From Streptomyces halobius (GTDB taxonomy: Bacteria; Actinomycetota; Actinomycetes; Streptomycetales; Streptomycetaceae), in the NCBI RefSeq assembly GCF_023277745.1, contig NZ_CP086322.1, forward strand, positions 2,604,001-2,668,000: a stretch of DNA of 64,000 nucleotides. Reading direction: 5' to 3'. Under the pieces are notes generated by a model. That model made no database searches and was not told the origin of the DNA. It was given only the letters and a program-made list of their open reading frames with translations. Position numbers and translations under genes: made by a program. This document shows, one piece after another, positions 7,683-21,147 of the stretch (positions are counted from its first letter, which is position 1; the number at the start of each line of letters is the position of its first letter).

Positions 7683-7970
7683 ATGACAGACATTCAGGGC
7701 GGCGCCACGTCTGAGGAACTCGGATCCTGGCTCACGGAGCGGGTGGCGTTCTACCTGGACAAGCCCATCGAGAAGATCGACCGCAGCGCCGAACTCGCCG
7801 GCTACGGCATGGACTCGCTCTACAGCGTGGCCATCATCACCGAGATCGAGGACAACCTGGGCATCAAGGTGGACATGATGGCGGTGTGGAAGTATCCGAC
7901 CATCAACGACCTGGTCGAGTACCTGCATACCCTTCTCACGGAAAAGACCTCGCAGCCCGACGCGGGTTGA
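7683..7970 (+). CDS. Acyl carrier protein for lipoinitiation
   Basis: A 95-residue single carrier domain. The phosphopantetheine site is GYGMDSLYS with Ser45, in the four-helix context ELAGYGMDSL...TEIEDNLGIKV. It stands alone between the acyl-AMP ligase and the dimethylargininase-family gene on the same strand. In daptomycin-type systems the ligase loads a fatty acid on such an ACP and the first condensation domain of the NRPS takes it from there. It needs activation by a phosphopantetheinyl transferase; one is encoded at 48133. Confidence 0.93.
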   Translation: MTDIQGGATSEELGSWLTERVAFYLDKPIEKIDRSAELAGYGMDSLYSVAIITEIEDNLGIKVDMMAVWKYPTINDLVEYLHTLLTEKTSQPDAG

Positions 7971-7993
7971 ACCATCCTTCTGAAAGAGGACTC

Positions 7994-8824
7994 GTGTCCA
8001 ACACCGCCGCAGTACGTCGCGTCGCCACCCCGCGCCGTTTCCTGATGTGCCCGCCCACTCACTTCGACGTCACCTACTCGATCAACCCGTGGATGGACCC
8101 GGACAAGCCGTCCGATGCGGGCCTGGCTATGGCCCAGTGGGAGCGCCTGCGCGACCTGTACCGCGAACTCGGGCACCAGGTAGAGGTAATCGAGCCGGCC
8201 CGCGACCTGCCGGATATGGTATTCGCTGCCAACGGCGCCACCGTCGTGGACGGCAAGGTCCTGGGCGCCCGCTTCCGGCACGTGCAGCGCACCGGTGAAG
8301 GTCCCCGGTACCTCTCTTGGTTCCAGGAGAACGGCTTCGGCGAAGTCTGCTGGCCTGAGCACATCAACGAGGGAGAGGGCGACTACCTGCTAGCGGGCCG
8401 CCGCCTGTTGGCCGGTACGGGCTTCCGTACGGACCAGCGTTCGCACGCAGAGGCTCAGGAGTTCTTTGGCGTGCCGGTCACTGGCCTGACGCTGGTGAAC
8501 CCCTTGCATTACCACCTGGACACGGCGCTGTCCGTGCTTTCCGAAGACGAGGTCATGTATTATCCGGCGGCCTTCTCCCCGGGAAGCCAGGCCGTCCTGA
8601 GGGAGCTGTTCCCCAACGCACTCCTGGCCACGGATGAGGACGCCGCAGTCTTCGGCCTCAATGCCATATCCGACGGCCGCCACGTGCTCCTTCCCGAGGC
8701 AGCAACGCACCTGATCGCCGAACTCAAGGACCGCGGCTTCGAGCCGATCGGCGTGGACTTGTCAGAACTGCTCAAGGCTGGCGGCAGCGTGAAGTGCTGC
8801 ACCCTCGAACTCCGGGACGAATAA
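7994..8824 (+). CDS. Dimethylargininase (DDAH)-family guanidino-group hydrolase
   Basis: A 276-residue protein of the pentein/guanidine-modifying superfamily. It shows DMVFAANGA (substrate-binding Asp/Asn region), LHYHLDTAL with the catalytic His, and SVKCCTLEL near the C-terminus, where a Cys is the nucleophile. Known relatives turn N-methylated arginine into citrulline, or act as arginine deiminase or amidinotransferase. Start GTG 7994 follows GAGG by four bases. It is the last gene of the ligase-ACP operon, 23 bases after the ACP. A role in supplying citrulline or ornithine-like residues to the peptide is inferred. The doubled Cys at the active site is worth noting. Confidence 0.88.
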   Translation: MSNTAAVRRVATPRRFLMCPPTHFDVTYSINPWMDPDKPSDAGLAMAQWERLRDLYRELGHQVEVIEPARDLPDMVFAANGATVVDGKVLGARFRHVQRTGEGPRYLSWFQENGFGEVCWPEHINEGEGDYLLAGRRLLAGTGFRTDQRSHAEAQEFFGVPVTGLTLVNPLHYHLDTALSVLSEDEVMYYPAAFSPGSQAVLRELFPNALLATDEDAAVFGLNAISDGRHVLLPEAATHLIAELKDRGFEPIGVDLSELLKAGGSVKCCTLELRDE

Positions 8825-11555: not shown

Positions 11556-13812
11556 CTACGGCTGCTCCCTTGCGCCGAATTCGACGATGAGGCTCCCGGA
11601 TTGTTTGATCCCGGTGAGCATGACGCTTCCGTTCGGACAGATGCCGAGTTGGTGCAGCGGATCCGGGACGAGGCGCAGGACGGGATCGGAGTCCGCCGCG
11701 AGTCCGGACACCACGACGAGGAAGAACTCGGCTCCCGAGGCCGCCCTTTCGCATTCCTTGGCGGTGAGGGTCACCGTGTCCTGTTCGGGTCCGTAGGTCG
11801 TCTTCAGCTCGTAGAACCGATCGAGCTTGTCCACGGCGTCGGCGCCCACGCCGTGCTGGTGCCGCAGATCGCGCAGCCACTCCGGTTCCTGCTCCGTGCC
11901 CTGAACCTTGCGCAGGAGGTCCAGGGCCACCCTCTCCTGGCGGTCGGTGTTGGGCGCAGGGGGAACCGGACGCGGGGCGGGCACGGCCGGTGCGTGTGCG
12001 GGCGGGGCGAGGCGGCCCCTGGCGGGTGCCCCTCTGCCGGCCCCGGACACACCACCAGCGGACGGCTGCGCCTGGGCGGTCCGGCGGATGCCGGTGATGC
12101 GGAGAGCTGCCGGATCGACGAACTTTCGCGGTTCCAGGAACGGGACGGCCGGAGCCGGGCGGACGGTGGCCGGCGGCAGGGATGCCGACGCGGTCGGCCG
12201 GGAGCCTGCCTTGTTCTGGACCGTCTTGACTTCGGTCTCCAGCGCGGCAAGGCGTTGGGCACGCTTGGCATCCGTCGCCGCCTGGTCCTGTGCGACCCGC
12301 TCCTCGGCCAGCTCGAGCCGCACCGCCTCTCGTCCGCGCTCCGCCTCGTCGTAGGCGGCTGCCCAGGAATAGGCGACCTGGCGCCGTCCTCGGTGAAGCG
12401 AGTCGCGATGGCCCGACCCGCCTCCGACGGCCGCCTCAGCAACTCGCGGTCCACCGTCCACAGAGTGCGGGAGTCCCGGTCGAGGGCGGTACGTACCGGC
12501 CCCCGAGCCGCCTCCCCATCGGGCAGGGCGACCAGGCACTCCAGCGACGAGGTGACCCGCACCTCGACCTGAGCCAAGTCCTCCCAGGGGCAGTCGAGCG
12601 ATCCCGCGACAGCGACGGCGTTGCGCTGGAGGTCCTCGCGGAGCAGATCCAGCGCGTGACGCACCAGATCGGTCGCTTCCTCGTCGACGGGCGCGTCCTC
12701 CGCGGGACGGAAGGTGATGTCCGCCGCTCCCAGCTCGGTCACCCGCAGAGGTCCGAGGAGCGCTCTGAACTGTTCGAGTTCCGCGCCCGGCAACCAGACC
12801 GGTATCCGCGAGCCCAGCGCCTCGGCCAATGTCGCGTCGGCCGCATACACCGGACGCTTGCTCGTCCACCCCCGACTCGTGCGCAGCGGCAGCCTGCCCA
12901 CCAAGGCGGCGGTCACCCTCTCGGGCCGTTCGCCAGCTGTTCCAGCGAGCATCTGTAAGGTCTCGAGCATCACGGTCTCGGCGTCGACCGGCACCCGCGC
13001 GTCCCGCTCCTCCCTCACCTCACGGGCCACTTCCCTGACGACCCGTACCGCATCCTCCACGCCGACCTCCGGAACTCCGAGGGTCTCCCAAAGGACGTCA
13101 CTGCCCTTGAACGACGTCGCGAAGGCGGCCCACCGGCCGAGGACCGGGAGGCCACGGAAGCAGTCGCCTGGCCGGCGCCAGCCCAAAGTCGTAAGGACCA
13201 GTCCACGTTGCTGCCCGAAGGCACTCAGGACACCGGCGGTCACCTGTGCTGCGTCCTTGCCCCGGTGGGCGGCTAGTCGCTCGGCAAGCGCCCGGTAGAC
13301 GATCTGCGCCGCCGGATGGTCGAGGGCGCCGGCCTCCCGGTCGCGGAGTAGGCGCAGTGCCTCCAAGAGGTCTGCTATTTCCGGCTCGCCGGTGACGCCC
13401 AGTGCAACCAGCACCTCGCCTCGCCTGCCCACCGCCTGCTGGAGGTCGGGGTGCAGGAAGCCTGCACCTTCCGCACCGTAGACGGCGACGGTACTGGTCG
13501 TACGCTCACGCAGGCCGCAGGGAGCGGCCGGTTCGCCGTCCTGGTTGTCCAGCCATGCCGTGGTCTTCAGCTGCCACAGCCAGAAGCCATCCGTCTCTCC
13601 GCGGGAGTTCCACGTGTGGTAGTCCGAGACGGCGCGGACCCTGTGGTGCTCGGACAAGGCGCCCCAGGCGCGTCCCAGTACCCGCAGCAGTGCGGCGGCC
13701 CGCCGGCGACGTACCGACCCGTCCTTCTCCGCAGCGATGTCACGGAGGACGGCCATCAGGTCAGGGCTGTCGTAGTCCTCCAAGGTGTAAGTGGCCGACC
13801 GGTTCTGGAGGT
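11556..13812 (-). pseudogene. C-terminal half of NO VEIN/sacsin-like protein (NOV_C domain), split by IS110
   Basis: This is the 3' part of the gene whose 5' part is at 15456-17754. It continues from an NLQNRSATYTLEDYD stretch at the insertion point through a helical region. Near 12378-12386 one base is missing: the frame ending IATRFTEDGA must shift to continue VAYSWAAAYDEAERGRE. After a coiled-coil-like EELAEERVAQ region and a Pro/Ala linker it ends in a domain with YELKTTYGPEQDTVTL and AKECERAASGAEFFLVVVSGL. This matches the NOV_C (DUF3883) fold, where E.K and a following Glu are conserved. Stop TAG at 11556. Not expressed as one protein in this form. Confidence 0.75.
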
Positions 13813-14211
13813 CCTAATTCGTGAGTAGGTGGTTCCAGACCAGCCCGAACGGGGCTGCTGGACTGTCGAAGTGGTGGGGATCCGTAGCGGCCGCGTGGGC
13901 GCCGGGCAGACTCCTGTGTGGTCCGGGCCCGTCGAGGCCTCACGAAAGACCGGTGGCGCCCGGCGTCTTCGGGCCGCTGCGGAACTCATCCACCCGTGCC
14001 GAACATTGATCTTCGTGGTGCGAGCCCGTCGCAGGATGACCTCTCCTTGTTGTCCCGAGCCTTCGAGCTCTGTCCGAGATCGGGGCCCCTGCGAGGCGCT
14101 GGCGTCACGAACGGCTGGTGAGATGGCGGACCCGCGAGTCCTGGAATTAGGTCGCCGCGTGGCCCACACAGGCTTGTCACCTGCACAAACGCATAGGGCA
14201 AGGAGCAGAGA
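13813..14211 (+). ncRNA. Candidate bridge RNA region of the IS110 element
   Basis: IS110-type recombinases are known to use a non-coding RNA from the element end upstream of the gene to choose donor and target. This element has ~400 bases of non-coding DNA exactly there. Within it, GAATTAGG at 14144-14151 is the reverse complement of the first eight bases of the element (CCTAATTC at 13813), as a donor guide should be. No RNA fold was computed, so the boundaries of the RNA and its loops are not defined. Confidence 0.45.
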
Positions 14212-15450
14212 TTGAACGTGTACTGCGGGATCGACTGGGCCGAACGACACCATGACGTCACCCTGGTCGACGAGGCCGGCACACAGCTCGCCAAGCGGCG
14301 GATCACCGACGACGCCGCCGGGTACCGGATGCTGCTGGAACTGCTCGCCGAGTACGGCGACACCCCCGAGGACCCGATACCGGTGGCCATCGAGACCAGC
14401 CATGGCCTGCTCGTGGCCACCCTGCGCACCGGAACCCGCCGGATCTACGCGGTCAACCCGCTGTCCGCCACCCGCTACCGCGACAGGCACAGCGTCTCGC
14501 GCAAGAAGTCCGACCCCGGCGACGCCCTGATCCTGGCGAACATCCTGCGCACGGACATGGACGCCCACCGGCCGCTGCCCGCTGACAGCGACCTGGCCCG
14601 CGCGATCACCGTGCTCGCCCGCGCTCAGCAGGACGCCGTCTGGAACCGCCAGCAGCTGGTCAACCAGGTCCGCTCGCTGCTGCGGACCTACTTCCCGGCT
14701 GCCCTGGACGCCTTCATGGGCAAGCAGTACGGCCTCGCCCGCCCAGAAGCCCGCGCCGTCCTGACCGCGGCCCCGACCCCGGCCCGCGCGGCGAAGCTGT
14801 CGATCGCGCAGCTGCAGGCCGCACTCCGCCGCGCGGGCCGCAGCCGGGGTATCGAGGCCGAGGCACGGCGCCTGCGGGAGATATTCCGCGGCGACTACGC
14901 CCGCCAGCCACAGGCCGTCGAAGACGCGATGGGACACCAACTCGCCGCCCTCGTCGTCCAGCTGGACGCCGCTTGCCGGGCTACGGACGAGTTGGCCGAG
15001 GCGGTGGAGGAGTCTTTTCTCCAGCACCCGGACGCTGACGTGCTGCTCAGCTTCCCCGGCCTCGGCGTCCAACTCGGCGCCCGGGTGCTCGCCGAGACCG
15101 GAGACGACCGCGACCGCTTCACCGACGCCCGCGCCTTGAAGGCATACGCCGGATCAGCCCCCATCACCCGAGCCTCGGGCAAGAAGAAGTTCGTCGGACG
15201 GCGGCACATCAAGAACGACCGCCTGATCACGGCGGGATTCCTGTGGGCCTTCTCCGCGCTGCGGAGTTCGCCCGGCGCCGACGCGCACTACCGCCGCCGA
15301 CGTGCGGCGGGAGACTGGCATGCCCAGGCCCAGCGGCATCTGTTCAACCGGCTGCTCGGCCAGCTCCACCACTGCCTGCAGACCCGGCAGCTCTTTGACG
15401 AGCATCACGCGTTCACCTCCTCCTCAGCGGACCTGGCCGTCGCGGCTTGA
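14212..15450 (+). CDS. IS110-family transposase (DEDD recombinase)
   Basis: A 412-residue protein. The N-terminal RuvC-like DEDD domain starts YCGIDWAERHHDVTLVDE (first Asp near residue 7) and has VAIETSHG and KSDPGDALILA. The C-terminal Tnp_20 domain has LSFPGLGVQLGARVLAE and a Ser-containing ITRASGKKKFVGRR, where the catalytic Ser is expected. TTG 14212 is chosen because AGGAG lies six bases before it; GTG 14218 is the alternative. Full family length and no break, so it may be active. Its tail overlaps the antisense end of the interrupted host gene. Confidence 0.93.
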   Translation: MNVYCGIDWAERHHDVTLVDEAGTQLAKRRITDDAAGYRMLLELLAEYGDTPEDPIPVAIETSHGLLVATLRTGTRRIYAVNPLSATRYRDRHSVSRKKSDPGDALILANILRTDMDAHRPLPADSDLARAITVLARAQQDAVWNRQQLVNQVRSLLRTYFPAALDAFMGKQYGLARPEARAVLTAAPTPARAAKLSIAQLQAALRRAGRSRGIEAEARRLREIFRGDYARQPQAVEDAMGHQLAALVVQLDAACRATDELAEAVEESFLQHPDADVLLSFPGLGVQLGARVLAETGDDRDRFTDARALKAYAGSAPITRASGKKKFVGRRHIKNDRLITAGFLWAFSALRSSPGADAHYRRRRAAGDWHAQAQRHLFNRLLGQLHHCLQTRQLFDEHHAFTSSSADLAVAA

Positions 15451-15455
15451 CTTGT

Positions 15456-17754
15456 TAGGCACGTGAGATGTCTTTCGGCGCTCCGCCGGGCCGCCCTGGA
15501 TCCGGGCCGGCAGGCCCTCGTTCGGGTTGGAGGCGGTGAACCGGTGCTCGACTCCGGGGTGTGGCCGGAGCCGAGGTCCCTTCTCGGCACCGAGCAGGTG
15601 GAAAAAGGCTCGGGCGCCCAGGCCCGTCCCTGCCCCGGGTAGGACCTGGGCATAGCGGGGGCGCAGCCAGGTCAGGCCGCTGGCCCCACCCGACGCGGTC
15701 TCGAAACTATCCTCTCGGTCCACACTGTCCAGCCGGGCCGGCAGGTAGGCATCCGCAGGACGGACCTGTACGTCCTCCCAGCGGCCCCCCGTCCTGGACC
15801 GCCGGCCCTGCAGCAGGACGGCGCGGCCCACGTCCTTGCCCAGCCGACGGCGCTCCCTCACGGGGACACGCAGGAATCCATCGCGCAGCGCCACCAGTTG
15901 GACGTCGTCCAGAACCAGAGGCGCGACGTCCCTTCGGGTGCCACGCGCGGCGAGTTGGCGGATGGCGGGTACCGGTTCCGCGCCCGTCACGAGAACCTGT
16001 TGGTCTCTCAGCCACGCACTGACCCGGGCCGCTTCCCCGGTCTCGGCGAAGAACGCCGGGTGCAGGACGCAGCTGAGCCCGAGCACCTTCCAGAGCCCCT
16101 GGGCCTTGTCGGTGAAGATCTCCGCGGCTCCGGGCCGGGGTACCCGGTGCCGTGCCCCCGAGACATCCACCAGCCATTTGTGCCATCGAAGCGTCAGCGT
16201 CTCGTCTTCGGCGATGGCGACGGAAGCGAGTGCGACCGTCGCCTCTGGGCTCCGGGGCCCATCGCCGAGAAGCTCGTCCAGGGCCATCGCGACGGTGACG
16301 GTCTCGGGCGCGGCACCGTCGTGTTCGGCCCAGTCATCGAGAACGTCCTGCCACCGCCCGTCCGCATCCCGCGCAGCTGGAGGCAATACAGCTATGCGTC
16401 CGGCCACCTGCGCGATCTCCGCCTCCGAAAGGGCGCGTGATAGCGCCTCGTCGCCGACTGCGAGGTCGGCGAGTCCGAGGTCGCCATGAAGCGGCGTCCG
16501 CAGGCGCAGCTCGTTCGACACCCTCGCGCGGGCCAGGGCGAGGAACCGCTGCTCCAAGTCGTGTACAGGCCCCTTCGGCGACTGGACGTCGTGCGGCAGC
16601 GGCAGGCACTGCCAGGCCGCGGTCGGGTCCAGGCGGAGCTGTCGCACGATGACGGCGGCCCAAAGGTCGGCCAGCAGGGGAAGCAGCGCCTGGTTCCACG
16701 GGGTGTCGTTGACGTGCTGACGGCTCGGGTTCGGATCGAACTGGGCGCCGACCCGGAGCGGCAGTCCCAGTTCGGTCACGGGCAGTCCGACGTGCACTTG
16801 TCCAGCCACCTCGTCGCCCGCGCCCTCGTGCAGCGGGATCGCGACGGCGAGGACGGTCGATTCGCCCGCGGCCTTGCGGATCCTTGGCACGTCGGGCGGG
16901 CTCGGTACGGTGGCACGGCTGACCTGCCAGGACATGCCGCCGGAGGTCCGAGCTGTGCGCACGTCGACTACGGTTTCCCGGCCGCCGACGACCGCTTCGC
17001 AGGCATCCGGTTCGCCCCACTCCAGTGCCAGCCGGGTGCGTACGTCACCCCCCTCGTGCTGGTGCACGACCGCGCGCACGTGGTGGAGAAAGAGCAGCGC
17101 CTCGTCACCCCACGCGGCGAGCCAGTCGTCCACGTCCTGGCCCCGCACCTCGGCGGGCGTGGCGAGCGGGATACGCAGGACAGTCCAACTGTCCTGCGCC
17201 GACCAGGCGGGAACCGAGAAGGGCTCGGCGAGGGACACGTCGGGATCCCCGATCCGGACGCGGTAGAAACCGCAGAAGATCTCCAAGACAGGGGACAACC
17301 GACGGAGGGTCATGAGTCCGATACCGAACCTGCCCGTAGCGTCAGGGTCGTCGGCCTTGCTCGTCAGCGAGGGCATGGCGAGCGCCATTACATCGGTCAG
17401 CCGTACCGGACGGCCGTCGTGCGCCACGAGCAGTTCCGTGTCGCGGACGAGAATCCTGACCTGGGATGCCCCGAGATCGTCGGCGTTCTGCACAATCTCG
17501 GACAGCCCCTGCAGCGGGTCAGTCGACAGGTCCCCGCCGTTGTCCCGCTGCCGACGCAGCCCGTACCGCATCTGCCCGGGCAGCTCCACGAACAGATCCC
17601 CGAGCCGCTGAACGGCCGCGCACGTTGCTTCAGGCCCGACCGGTTCGGGCACCTCCGCACCGTCTGTCAGCCCCTCCCGTTCCATGAGGTCCTCGGCCGC
17701 CCGAATCGCCCGCTCCACGTCAGCCGCCGTCGATCCGCCACGCTCAGCAGTCAT
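15456..17754 (-). pseudogene. N-terminal half of NO VEIN/sacsin-like GHKL ATPase, split by IS110
   Basis: The 5' part of a gene that, with the IS110 removed and one lost base restored, would encode about 1,518 residues. The first 200 residues carry a GHKL (Hsp90-like) ATP site: EIVQNADDLGAS (N box, ~86-97), AHDGRP (G1, Asp113) and GRFGIGL (G2, ~141-147), as in sacsin and plant NO VEIN. The rest is a long region without known motifs. ATG 17754 follows a GGGGGCGAGGG stretch. As it stands, translation would run into the element and stop at 15424, giving a 776-residue product with 11 foreign residues at its end. Large bacterial proteins of this kind are suspected of nucleic-acid or defence roles; this is not proven. 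Confidence 0.78.
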
Positions 17755-17969
17755 CCCTCGCCCCCTTGCTGCGATGCCCCGGTTAGCGATCGTAGATCGT
17801 CAAGGAAAGCGAGGGGGCGGGAACGGCGGTCGGCGGGAATCCCTCGTTTCCCGCCGACCGGCCACACCGTTGTACCTGCCATGCCAGCCAGTTCGCGCGG
17901 GCACGAGGATCGCTTCAGGAGGTGCCGCACTCCTGGCTGGCACCTCCCGAGCTGGCCGCTACAAGGACC

Positions 17970-18290
17970 TCATCTACAAGAGTTGGTGGTGCCGACGCCG
18001 ACTGCTCGGTCAAAGCCGGCCTTCATCGGCTGGCCCGGTCCGTGGAGGAGGGCACCCATGAGGTAGTTCTGGTTGGCGGCCTGCAGCTGCTCAAGCACTC
18101 TGATTGCGCGGACGACGGACTCGCAGACGGTCCATGTCGCCTCGACGCCTTCTGCGTCCTCTTCGCCCTTGAACGCTCGGCTGTGTACTCGCCAGCGGTA
18201 GGCGTATCCGGCCTCGTCGCGCTTGGCTTCGACGCAGCCGCACTTGATGTTTTTGACTACTGGCGGGAGGGGGTTATGTCCGACCGTGCA
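17970..18290 (-). pseudogene. Tyrosine recombinase (integrase) fragment
   Basis: The minus strand is open for 106 codons between TAG at 18291-18293 and TGA at 17970. It reads NPLPPVVKNIKCGCVEAKR, then YAYRWRVHSRAFKGEED and ATWTVCESVVRAIRVLEQL. This matches the middle of the catalytic domain of large actinomycete phage-type integrases (the R.R..KG ... W.V...V..A...LE.L pattern). Neither the N-terminal arm nor the R-H-R-Y box is present, so it is a relic. It lies 215 bases upstream of the NOV_C gene. Confidence 0.55.
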
Positions 18291-18378: not shown

Positions 18379-19659
18379 TCAGACTCCAATCAGGCTGTAC
18401 GTACCCGTACCGTCCTGCCTACCACTGGAGTACTGGCGTATGAACTCCCCGTCCGCGTACCGGTCGTGGCCCATCATGGAGCCGGTGTACTTGTTCTGCA
18501 CACCGATCTTCGAGCTGCCGGGTACGTCGCGGTAGATGTAGAACCGCTGGAGGTCGTCCTCCGTGCAGGGGGCCGTCTGCAGGACCGCCCGTTCGGTGGC
18601 CGCGTTCTGCTCGGCGATGGTCGCGCACCCGCCGTTGCCCCAGTTCCACAGGGACGCCTCGAGGACCCCGTTGTTCTCCGTCACGTTGCACAGGCGCCAG
18701 TTGTCCAGGTGGGCGCTGAAGATCGACGAGGGCCGCAGGCGGACACCGTCGTCCGCCAGGAGCGGCGCGCCCCAGGACAGGGGCTTGCCGGGTACGGCGA
18801 TCTTGTAGACCTCGGCCTTGCAGTCGAGAGCGGCCCGCGCGCTACGCCCGGTGGCCTTGGGCTGTTCGGCGGACGTGCCGCTGGTGAGCGCCGGGCGCTG
18901 CACGAGGCGGTCCCGCTTCTGCTTCGCCGTCGGCGCCACCGCACCCGCCGGGTGCTCGGCCCTCGCGGCGGCCGAGCCGCAGTCGAGGAGACCTTGTGCC
19001 TTGGCCATGATGCTGCCTGCGGGCACCTCGTCCTGGCAGCGCACCGCGCCTTCCTCGAGCGTGGTGTAGGTGGTGAAGTTGCCGCCGTCGGGCCCCTCGA
19101 TCCACTTCAACGCCCAACTGCCGTCGCCCTGTTGGACGCGGTTGCAGTTGAGGCTTCCGTACGTACCGGTGACCTTCTTGGTGCCCTTGTAGGCGCCGTA
19201 GTAGCCGGGCTGGTTGAAGTTCCACGTGACCGCGTTCGACTCGGTGCTGGTGGAGGTGTAGTCGACCTTCACGTTCAGGCCCAGGCTCGCGCCGACCTTG
19301 CCGAGGGTCTCGACGGCGAAACTGCCCTCGACATTGCCGTTGAGGCCGACGGAGACCGAGATGGTCGTCTGGGTGCTGGTGGTGACGGTCTGGGTGCCGG
19401 TTGTGCCCTCGGTGACGTACCAGCCCTTGAAGTGAGTGATCGTCGGGGACACTTCGGTGCTCTTGATGTACGGATGGCGTGTGCCGAGGTCGGCCGCCGT
19501 ACAGGTGTCGCCGGGCTTTGCCTGAGCAGCGGCGGGCTTTGCCGGGGCGGCGGCGGCCGGTGAGGCCGCGAAGCTCATGGCGGCTATCGCGGAGGCAGCC
19601 GCAGCGGTGAAGGCTATGAGCCCTCTGCCGAAGCGGCCGGTCGATCTTAAGTGACGCAT
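18379..19659 (-). CDS. Secreted protein with Ser/Thr-rich beta region and lectin-like C-terminus
   Basis: A 426-residue protein with a Sec signal (basic start, hydrophobic core, cut near ASPAAAA, ~37). Residues ~75-180 are rich in alternating Thr/Ser/Val strands (TTSTQTTISVSVGLNGNVEG, then KVDYTSTSTESNAVTW). This is the pattern of the insertion hairpin of aerolysin/ETX-MTX2 pore-forming proteins. The last ~120 residues (WNWGNGGCATIAEQN, then APCTEDDLQRFYIY) look like a ricin-type trefoil or similar sugar-binding fold. ATG 19659 follows GGGGGAAAG; an earlier frame start lacks support. It stands alone between integrase and oxidoreductase relics. Toxin function is inference; family identity is unconfirmed. 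Confidence 0.7.
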   Translation of the reverse strand: MRHLRSTGRFGRGLIAFTAAAASAIAAMSFAASPAAAAPAKPAAAQAKPGDTCTAADLGTRHPYIKSTEVSPTITHFKGWYVTEGTTGTQTVTTSTQTTISVSVGLNGNVEGSFAVETLGKVGASLGLNVKVDYTSTSTESNAVTWNFNQPGYYGAYKGTKKVTGTYGSLNCNRVQQGDGSWALKWIEGPDGGNFTTYTTLEEGAVRCQDEVPAGSIMAKAQGLLDCGSAAARAEHPAGAVAPTAKQKRDRLVQRPALTSGTSAEQPKATGRSARAALDCKAEVYKIAVPGKPLSWGAPLLADDGVRLRPSSIFSAHLDNWRLCNVTENNGVLEASLWNWGNGGCATIAEQNAATERAVLQTAPCTEDDLQRFYIYRDVPGSSKIGVQNKYTGSMMGHDRYADGEFIRQYSSGRQDGTGTYSLIGV

Positions 19660-19966
19660 CGTTTTCTTTCCCCCTTTGGCCGGCCCGCGCACAGGCGGGA
19701 ACCCCGGCCGGTGGTGTGGTCAGTGTGATGGTGCTGAGCGCGACTAAACATAGGGCCACCCGATGAAAAGATGATGACGGAATCAGCTAATTTGATCACG
19801 CCAGGGCGGAATGGCTTGTTCTCAGTTGGTACGCGCGGGCGTTGCCCGAGTTCACCGTGATGTCCGTCCAGCATGTGGCCGGCGGGCGCCGAGAGCGCCG
19901 GGAGCGGGTACAGCCGCGGGACGACCGGGGGTGTGCCCAAATACCCAACCGCCGCAACCACCACGG

Positions 19967-20574: not shown

Positions 20575-20688
20575 GCACACCTGCACATTCGCGAATCCGG
20601 CCAGCACTCTTCGCGACCTGCAAAGACACCGGTCAGCGCGTCACCTGCAAACCAGATGCAAATCACCGTGCCAGTGGAACCCGAAGAG
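20519..20688 (+). repeat. Diverged module copy B (GTCAGC array plus 21-base identity)
   Basis: GTCAGG at 20519 and GTCAGC at 20528 and 20539 (spacing 9 and 11) are followed about 150 bases on by the 21-base match to 11086-11106. The spacing from array to match differs by only one base between copies. The DNA between is weakly similar (both have CACATG...GCACA and CTGCC). It abuts the truncated gene on its left and the glycosyltransferase fragment on its right. Confidence 0.65.
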
Positions 20689-20689
20689 A

Positions 20690-21147
20690 TACTCGGTGGA
20701 GCGGCCGCTCCCGGATCGTGCGGGTATGGCGTTTCGATGCAGTCGGGTGCGAGGACGGTGTCCGCGTCGACGGCGAGTACGAGGTCGGCGGTGCAGTTAC
20801 GAGGTCGGTGGTGCAGTGCGGCAGGGAGTAGTTCTGCACCTTGGCCTTGCTGCCGAGGTCGCGCGGCGGGCGGATAACGGTCACGCCATGTGATGCCGCC
20901 ACCTCGCCCGTACGGTCGCTGGAGGTGTCGTCCACGACCAGGACGCGGTCAGCCGGGACCGTTTGGCGCACAAGGATTCGAGTGTGGCCGGCAGCCCCTC
21001 CTCCTCATGGTGAGCTGGGACGAGGAAGGTGACGGTGTGCATGCTGAGCTCCCCTGTACTGCGGATCTTGGCGGCTGCAACAGCGATCAGGCCGGTGCAG
21101 CCGTAGACGACGGTGCTGATGCCGATGAATGGCAGTCCTCGGTACAT
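20690..21147 (-). pseudogene. Family 2 glycosyltransferase fragment
   Basis: From ATG 21147 the frame gives one membrane helix and then HTVTFLVPAHHEEEGLPATL. A frameshift near 20965 leads to TVPADRVLVVDDTSSDRTGE, the VDD.S.D..... nucleotide-sugar motif. A 20-base tandem duplication around 20778-20818 (TACGAGGTCGG...) breaks the DAD metal motif region, and the gene stops at the edge of module B. It is the N-terminal third of a membrane-anchored GT2 such as a poly-GlcNAc or hyaluronan-type synthase. Confidence 0.6.

Follow-up and report, generated by a model that had tools for sequence, protein, structure and literature searches.

A tmtA pseudogene of Streptomyces halobius broken by an IS110 element, and putative multi-target bridge RNAs among the relatives of that element

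Introduction

Tiamat, reportedly first described by Millman and others in 2022, is an anti-phage system whose gene we take to be tmtA. According to the accessible part of PMC10482375, it is listed among the systems whose mechanism is unknown, is enriched in Actinobacteria and is almost always chromosomal. The bridge RNAs of IS110-family insertion elements, which are under development as programmable recombinases, are described in the portion of PMC11208160 available to us as having one target loop and one donor loop. These two subjects meet in a 64,000-nucleotide stretch of the genome of Streptomyces halobius (hereafter the window; G000:C1:2604001-2668000 within a single-contig, 9.24-megabase genome), where an IS110-family element sits within a gene that appears to be tmtA.

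Bridge RNAs specify both partners of an insertion. In IS621, as given in the same portion of PMC11208160, the target loop has two guides: the left one base-pairs with the bottom strand on the left side of the core dinucleotide, and the right one with the top strand on its right side. The donor loop is arranged in the same way. The TIGR arrays of TIGR-Tas are built of tandem units with two guide stretches each, and the RNA-binding (Nop) domains of Tas and of IS110 proteins are structurally similar (PMC12045711, in its accessible sections).

Here, we describe the interrupted gene, the inserted element and the relatives of both. What is new concerns the relatives of the element and not the gene. 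Sequence comparison makes it very probable that the IS110 family includes elements with multi-target bridge RNAs, comprising two to four tandem target loops, a conserved loop and one donor loop, in which each variable loop names a different site. The multi-loop claim rests on relatives of the window element, which itself has one variable loop and a conserved 3' unit.

Results

One gene broken by an insertion and a frame switch

Between 11556 and 17754 of the window, on the minus strand, lies one gene of 1,519 codons (as reconstructed) that carries, in this assembly, one IS110 insertion between two CT cores and one frame switch, and that is found in three fragments in three frames. We read it with high confidence as a tmtA pseudogene, a former single-gene Tiamat anti-phage system that the element and the frame switch have inactivated. 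The N-terminal fragment (15472..17754, minus strand; 761 codons) holds the GHKL ATPase/sacsin-like N-terminal domain and part of what follows; it matches residues 1-752 of the PADLOC model PDLC03968 with 848 bits, and its best ortholog stands at 88%. The middle fragment (12386..13815, minus strand, in another frame) was delimited by tblastn of intact orthologs, which covers 13813-12386, and its part 12869-13783 matches residues 763-1057 of the model with 323 bits. The C-terminal fragment (11556..12386, minus strand, in the third frame) carries the NOV_C, PD-(D/E)xK-like end and was assigned by PADLOC, tblastn and the NOV_C score; the stretch of it that was searched, 11556-12353, matches residues 1234-1484 of 1486 with 201 bits. 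Searched separately, the pieces are therefore collinear on one and the same TmtA model, PDLC03968 (length 1486).

Intact orthologs at five loci (L008, L013, L014, L019 and L023) cover all three pieces in one frame, and none of the five consists of two separate genes; the L019 ortholog comes from Streptomyces pilosus. When these proteins were compared with the unaltered window by tblastn, each gave three consecutive blocks in three frames, with breaks at the element and near 12386. In L008 the blocks on either side of the element meet exactly, and in L013 they share 7 residues; in L014, L019 and L023 the first block continues past the element boundary, with a 45-residue overlap. Near 12386, L008, L013 and L019 give adjoining blocks, and L014 and L023 give blocks that share 4 residues. 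A one-base gap in 12300-12470 is present relative to all three orthologs aligned there, and the L008 alignment puts it at 12386. These comparisons bear out an earlier sequence-only reading of this DNA, which had proposed a single gene broken by an IS110 element and one frame switch, and its reconstructed frame of 1,519 codons is exactly that of the intact L013 ortholog, stop included (L013:10001-14557). The same reading had placed the element at 13813-15455, joined at a GT. Comparison with L008 and with a second copy of the element moves the ends to 13816-15471 and makes the core CT, the earlier right end having been 16 bases short. Since the two insert lengths (1,643 and 1,658 bases) are a multiple of three apart, its reading frame was unaffected; the HVPN that it read at the junction is, with the ends corrected, encoded by the element.

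The ratio of nonsynonymous to synonymous substitution rates (dN/dS) for the N-terminal and middle fragments against three orthologs was 0.18-0.26, and that between intact orthologs was 0.23-0.26. Since these two fragments show no relaxed selection and the two copies of the element are nearly identical (see below), both breaks are probably recent.

In the loci compared, homology hardly extends beyond the gene. A stretch upstream of it (17755..17911, minus strand), recognized by blastn to orthologous loci, accompanies the gene in some other genomes and is perhaps its promoter region; the upstream homology ends at 17803 in L014, 17873 in L008, 17911 in L013 and 17930 in L019, and no sigma-70-like site was found in 17700-18000. 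When positions 1-30000 of the window were compared with L008, L013, L014 and L019, the homology took in the gene, began 49-176 bases before it and reached no more than 15 bases past its end. A shared stretch limited to the gene and short flanks indicates that tmtA travels between genomes as a solitary cassette.

The inserted element and its putative bridge RNA

The IS110-family element occupies 13816..15471 on the plus strand, 1,656 base pairs between the cores (1,658 with one CT), as delimited by the L008 comparison and the second copy. The left CT core dinucleotide lies at 13814..13815 and the right one at 15472..15473 (both plus strand; sequence, ortholog comparison and second copy). L008 agrees with the left flank through 13815 and with the right flank from 15472; the two-base overlap is CT, which the uninterrupted L008 carries once. 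A DEDD transposase/recombinase of 412 amino acids is encoded at 14212..15450 (plus strand), with matches to PF01548 (E 2.6e-36, 125 bits) and to the C-terminal Transposase_20 domain, PF02371 (E 7.7e-14, 52 bits). The second copy, at G000:C1:8071824-8073498, agrees with the first in its ends and in the bases adjoining these; the two copies are 99.7% identical over 1,675 positions, with five differences of which one is in the flank. Both insertion sites share GGAGGTC-CT-TTCGG, and their wider flanks differ.

With its DEDD transposase, its CT core, its long left end, and a leader in which a target loop precedes a donor loop whose guides fit the element ends, the element resembles the IS621-type IS110 elements described in the accessible part of PMC11208160, and its leader probably encodes a bridge RNA. 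Comparison with relatives places the target-loop unit of this putative RNA at 13889..13974 (plus strand). Its left guide (13917-13923) agrees at five of seven positions with both of the element's own target sites, its hairpin starts at 13926, and its right guide (13941-13948; CACGAAAG) agrees at four of six non-core positions with the window site and at five of six with that of the other copy. The target-loop guides of the putative bridge RNA, which partly fit both sides of GGAGGTC-CT-TTCGG, would have guided insertion into tmtA. The donor-binding loop (14118..14151, plus strand), read by eye from the sequence and the alignment of relatives, consists of a left donor guide, GTGAGATG (14118-14125), a hairpin, and a right donor guide, GGAATTAGG (14143-14151). 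By eye, these guides fit the element's own ends, the right end being ...GTGAGATGT and the left end AATTCG....

The element differs from the IS621 type in a second, conserved target-loop-like unit adjoining the donor loop (14019..14104, plus strand; a GAGCC..GAGCTC hairpin), which is also present in most relatives parsed and which agrees with the flanks at four of seven positions on the left and none of six on the right. Although this unit is conserved in the window element and its relatives, its guide-like stretches vary. A target guide near 14040 was considered and dropped, given the pairing rules in the accessible part of PMC11208160 and the alignment of relatives. Folded alone, the window units gave no minimum-energy shape of the order stem, guide, hairpin, guide, stem; that shape rests on the comparison of relatives.

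Tandem target loops in related leaders

The leaders of relatives are often longer and contain several units of like build, each with an outer stem, a left guide, a GGCC-type hairpin, a right guide ending in AG, and the closing side of the outer stem. Variable loops were counted in 34 leaders whose left end is known and which are not all independent of one another: 9 had one, 18 had two, 6 had three and 1 had four, the third loop of L104 being probably spurious. Most of these leaders also carry the conserved 3' unit beside a single donor loop. Two to four loops are found, for example, in L033, L090, L092, L103, L109, L155, L158, L174, L186, L206 and L218, and among other IS110 copies in the S. 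halobius genome itself L035 has two variable loops, L033 three and L218 four. Many relatives thus have two to four variable target loops, in contrast to the one target loop and one donor loop described in the accessible part of PMC11208160.

When 61 variable units were aligned, 706 of the 793 cells of the consensus structure were paired, and several pairs occurred as four or five pair types. Because stem pairing was part of the selection of units, what is informative in this result is how varied the pair types are. The 3' units, aligned alone, gave a consensus consisting of their hairpin only. No report of multi-loop or tandem bridge RNAs was found among the papers listed from the literature searched, which was mostly without subscription papers and bioRxiv.

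Agreement between target loops and insertion-site flanks

For each leader the best loop was scored at a fixed register, over seven positions for the left flank and six for the right, with thresholds of 6/7 and 5/6, respectively. The register was set by eye on a first set of loci, and the rules were frozen before a held-out set was scored, so that only the held-out set is a fair test.

The first set of 54 loci yielded 37 distinct leaders, the others being repeats or lacking a match to the donor-loop pattern. After identical flanks had been merged, 31 of the 34 left flanks remained (L098, L109 and L146 were removed), and 19 right flanks were used. The mean agreement was 5.42/7 on the left (n=31; 3.28 after shuffling) and 4.32/6 on the right (n=19; 2.70 after shuffling), and on neither side did any of 20,000 shuffles reach the observed mean. 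Below the threshold were 13 of the 31 left flanks (L047, L083, L084, L085, L086, L087, L089, L091, L092, L100, L105, L112 and L144) and 9 of the 19 right flanks (L033, L083, L084, L089, L094, L095, L097, L100 and L107). Several loci with a weak left flank have a good right flank despite it, namely L087 (6/6) and L047, L085, L086, L092, L105 and L144 (5/6 each). L089, L091 and L100 fit no loop that was found, though L089 lies at the same site as L109. The left flank of L092 is tied between its two loops at 5/7, and that of L102 scores 6 against 5. At L094 (G176:C97) the left flank fits loop 2 (7/7), whereas the right fits loop 1 better (4/6 against 2/6), a mixture that possibly reflects recombination between two copies.

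The held-out set began with 56 loci, of which 15 had no donor-loop match and 12 had already been used or were duplicates; 29 were kept. Left flanks averaged 5.33/7 (n=24; 3.14 after shuffling) and right flanks 4.58/6 (n=12 distinct; 2.42 after shuffling), and again 0 of 20,000 shuffles reached either mean. At least 6/7 was attained by 15 of the 24 left flanks (shuffles average 1.0, maximum 6) and at least 5/6 by 10 of the 12 right flanks (shuffles average 1.17, maximum 6). The flanks that fell short were nine on the left (L164, L167, L168, L172, L179, L190, L192, with two loops tied at 5/7, L207 and L215) and two on the right (L207 and L216). Both flanks chose the same loop at L163, L165, L167, L175, L186, L187, L206 and L209, of which L163 and L167 have one variable loop only. 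The shuffling leaves relatedness among elements in place and several held-out leaders come from families already seen (for example L165, L193, L171, L174 and L210), so these counts are not fully independent. With the 3'-most unit, no flank reached the threshold in either set (0/30 left and 0/18 right in the first; 0/20 and 0/10 in the held-out).

Near-identical elements at different addresses

The elements L159 (the L109 locus, in G400) and L158 (in G164) are 95.7% identical over 1,728 aligned positions. The L109/L159 site agrees with loop 1 at 7/7 and 6/6 and with loop 2 at 4 and 4. At the L158 site the right flank agrees with loop 2 at 6/6 and with loop 1 at 4/6, and the left flank, GGATCTCC-CT, agrees with loop 2 at 6/7, scored by eye since the left end has one changed base. 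Taken together, L159 and L158 would show that one and the same element could use either loop.

In family A, whose leaders were 92-94% identical in the five pairs compared, loop 2 fits L097 and L104 (left 7/7 each) and L092 (right 5/6), sites whose flanks are unlike one another. Loop 1 is best in L093, L102, L103, L144, L148, L165 and L193; among these, L102, L103, L144 and L148 have homologous flanks and so do not represent four independent choices. L155 and L174, which have the same listed guides, are best on loop 3 and loop 2, respectively, at 6/7 each, and loop 1 of L174 reaches 5.

Identity and distribution of the gene

Near-full-length agreement with PDLC03968 makes the identification of the gene as TmtA almost certain: four intact orthologs that were scanned score 1,450-1,665 bits over nearly the whole model. 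Like Tiamat (PDLC03968, with sister models in the range PDLC03964-03972), they are single large genes with a GHKL-type ATPase at the N-terminus and NOV_C at the C-terminus; the window copy differs in being broken in two ways. The sequence-only reading had suggested an undescribed defense system. A defense role for the intact protein is indeed likely, to judge from these matches, but an undescribed system is ruled out, since the family is already catalogued as TmtA in PADLOC, and Tiamat is named in the accessible part of PMC10482375.

Near-full-length tmtA was found in 13 of 392 genomes of the genus sampled, as one open frame in 11 and split in 2 (this genome and G028). The split copy of G028, a draft of 1,300 contigs, gives two matches at G028:C560:3210-7771, and fragments of tmtA with 96-153 bits remain in G021, G355 and G408. 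The gene may decay repeatedly in the genus.

Domain organization and a possible mechanism

The GHKL ATP site picked out by the sequence-only reading proved to be invariant in 56 aligned sequences (E86, N90, H112, G114, G141, R142, F143, G144 and G146), and the N-terminal profile matches the solved sacsin domains 5v44-5v47, with a best E of 2.5e-8 (5v47). Its assignment of a NOV_C/DUF3883 end also stands, at a PF13020 score just under the cut-off: D422, E432 and K434 of the C-terminal part are invariant in the same 56 sequences, in the pattern GAD-x9-ExK. DUF3883 is the older name of NOV_C. It has been termed 'a novel REase domain' in the accessible part of PMC3710099.

The earlier description of the protein as NO VEIN/sacsin-like holds at the level of domains, the N-terminus having a sacsin-type ATP-binding domain and the C-terminus being of the type found in plant NO VEIN. 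These resemblances are, on the sequence comparisons made, distant domain similarities. The scores lie below the Pfam cut-offs, no HEPN or DnaJ match at E 1 was found in the three gene fragments scanned (12354-12868 lies outside them), and the bacterial family is catalogued as defense.

From this layout we lean slightly toward the view that the intact protein is an ATP-gated infection sensor that unleashes a nuclease. An infection signal would cause the N-terminal GHKL (Hsp90/sacsin-type) ATPase to open and close as a clamp, and the clamp would then release the C-terminal NOV_C domain, restriction-endonuclease-like and bearing GAD-x9-ExK, to cut nucleic acid.

Genomic neighbors

Some intact orthologs lie near defense genes, as the sequence-only reading had said of relatives of this protein. 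At L013, tmtA adjoins a Mokosh-like operon (PADLOC), and a type IIG restriction-modification gene lies about 1 kilobase upstream of tmtA at L014 (1,002 bits), with the same gene cluster in L023. The L013 operon, upstream of tmtA and divergent from it, encodes a VWA protein, a protein kinase, an MkoA-like helicase, an MkoB-like protein and an AAA_5/PDC-M26A-like protein. By cluster identity, with the scan made on L013, its gene clusters also occur at L015 and, minus the VWA gene, at L019; it is perhaps a form of Mokosh whose kinase is separate. At L008, tmtA adjoins a microbial transglutaminase gene.

In the window itself, the frame upstream of tmtA (18379-19692, minus strand) encodes a secreted-looking protein of 437 amino acids with no Pfam match at E 0.01. 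A 102-amino-acid frame at 20663-20971 (minus strand) matches glycosyltransferase family 2 (PF00535, E 6.4e-7) and is probably a remnant, and a Pfam scan of ten neighboring frames identified a dimethylargininase-like gene at 7886-8824. The window contains no transfer RNAs and no Rfam RNAs. The integrase relic that had been placed beside the gene did not materialize as a tyrosine integrase: PF00589 matches at 33 places in the genome and at none in the window, other integrase types being unsearched.

Discussion

Several observations weigh against the picture drawn here of a broken Tiamat gene and a guiding bridge RNA. Other TmtA models, one of which may hold the experimentally tested Tiamat, are distant (best 44.9 bits for a window piece and 67.5 for an intact ortholog). 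At E 0.001, 377 of the 392 genus genomes match PDLC03968, nearly all weakly and in the ATPase part, so that related ATPases are common. NOV_C (PF13020) scores 21.3 bits in the window against a Pfam cut-off of 22.1, and SACS scores 24.5 bits (E 2.7e-5, N-terminal fragment) against 32.8; PF13020 has no match at E 0.001 in this genome, 3 of 14 control genomes being positive. Ten ortholog neighbors scanned with PADLOC gave no match in four cases and weak matches in three, and two further ones gave moderate matches (102 and 50 bits). The guides of the window element fit its site only partly (5/7 left and 4/6 right), and its target unit, folded alone, adopts a minimum-energy structure other than the one drawn from relatives. 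Finally, a sequencing error at 12386 is a possible cause of the frame switch.

Such an assembly error, with the IS110 element alone breaking the gene, is the strongest of the alternatives that concern the gene, and we hold it to be somewhat unlikely. It would agree with a gap of a single base, seen in one assembly, and with the two measured fragments showing no relaxed selection; yet the longest homopolymer in 12370-12400 is 2, and a gene killed by insertion would accumulate such changes anyway. That the two halves are separate genes which chance to flank the insertion has practically no probability left: they do lie in different frames in the window, but tblastn finds both in one frame in all five intact orthologs compared, which rules the idea out, and 11 of the 13 near-full-length matches in the genus are single open frames. 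As to function, the protein might be a sacsin-like chaperone or housekeeping ATPase with incidental defense neighbors, in keeping with its N-terminal likeness to sacsin, with the many public records named 'sacsin N-terminal ATP-binding-like domain-containing protein', and with the related ATPase parts present in nearly all genus genomes sampled and flanks that vary between genomes. We judge this improbable, for the near-full-length family occurs in just 13 of 392 genomes, unlike a housekeeping gene, the C-terminus is nuclease-like, and a defense-library model is covered almost from end to end by intact orthologs, with scores of up to 1,665 bits. A tmtA pseudogene, broken by the element and by a frame switch, is the reading we prefer.

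For the element family, the chief alternative is that the extra target loops of relatives are dead relics and that each element uses one loop. The 3'-most unit, which passes for no flank, and L094, whose two flanks fit different loops, are compatible with such decay, and the evidence is one of sequence comparison. Against relics, the 95.7%-identical L159 and L158 lie at sites that fit loop 1 and loop 2, respectively, on both flanks (the left flank of L158 by eye), the sites of family A divide between loop 2 (L097 and L104, and L092 through its right flank) and loop 1, and the outer stems show several pair types. We consider the relic explanation unlikely, and prefer multi-target bridge RNAs. 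These recall the TIGR arrays of PMC12045711 (accessible sections) in having tandem units with two guide stretches each; the likeness is one of layout only, the relatives described here being IS110s with an array-like leader and the protein being an IS110 transposase.

In itself the gene is unremarkable, an inactivated copy of a defense system already catalogued, although its conserved layout of ATPase and nuclease makes the unknown mechanism of Tiamat testable through point mutants. If the multi-target interpretation is true, a single element can carry several addresses at the same time, and these elements would be natural multi-specific recombinases, representing an array-like state between single-guide IS110 elements and TIGR guide arrays. 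They would bear on the connection that the accessible sections of PMC12045711 propose between the bridge RNAs of IS110 elements and the guide arrays of TIGR systems.

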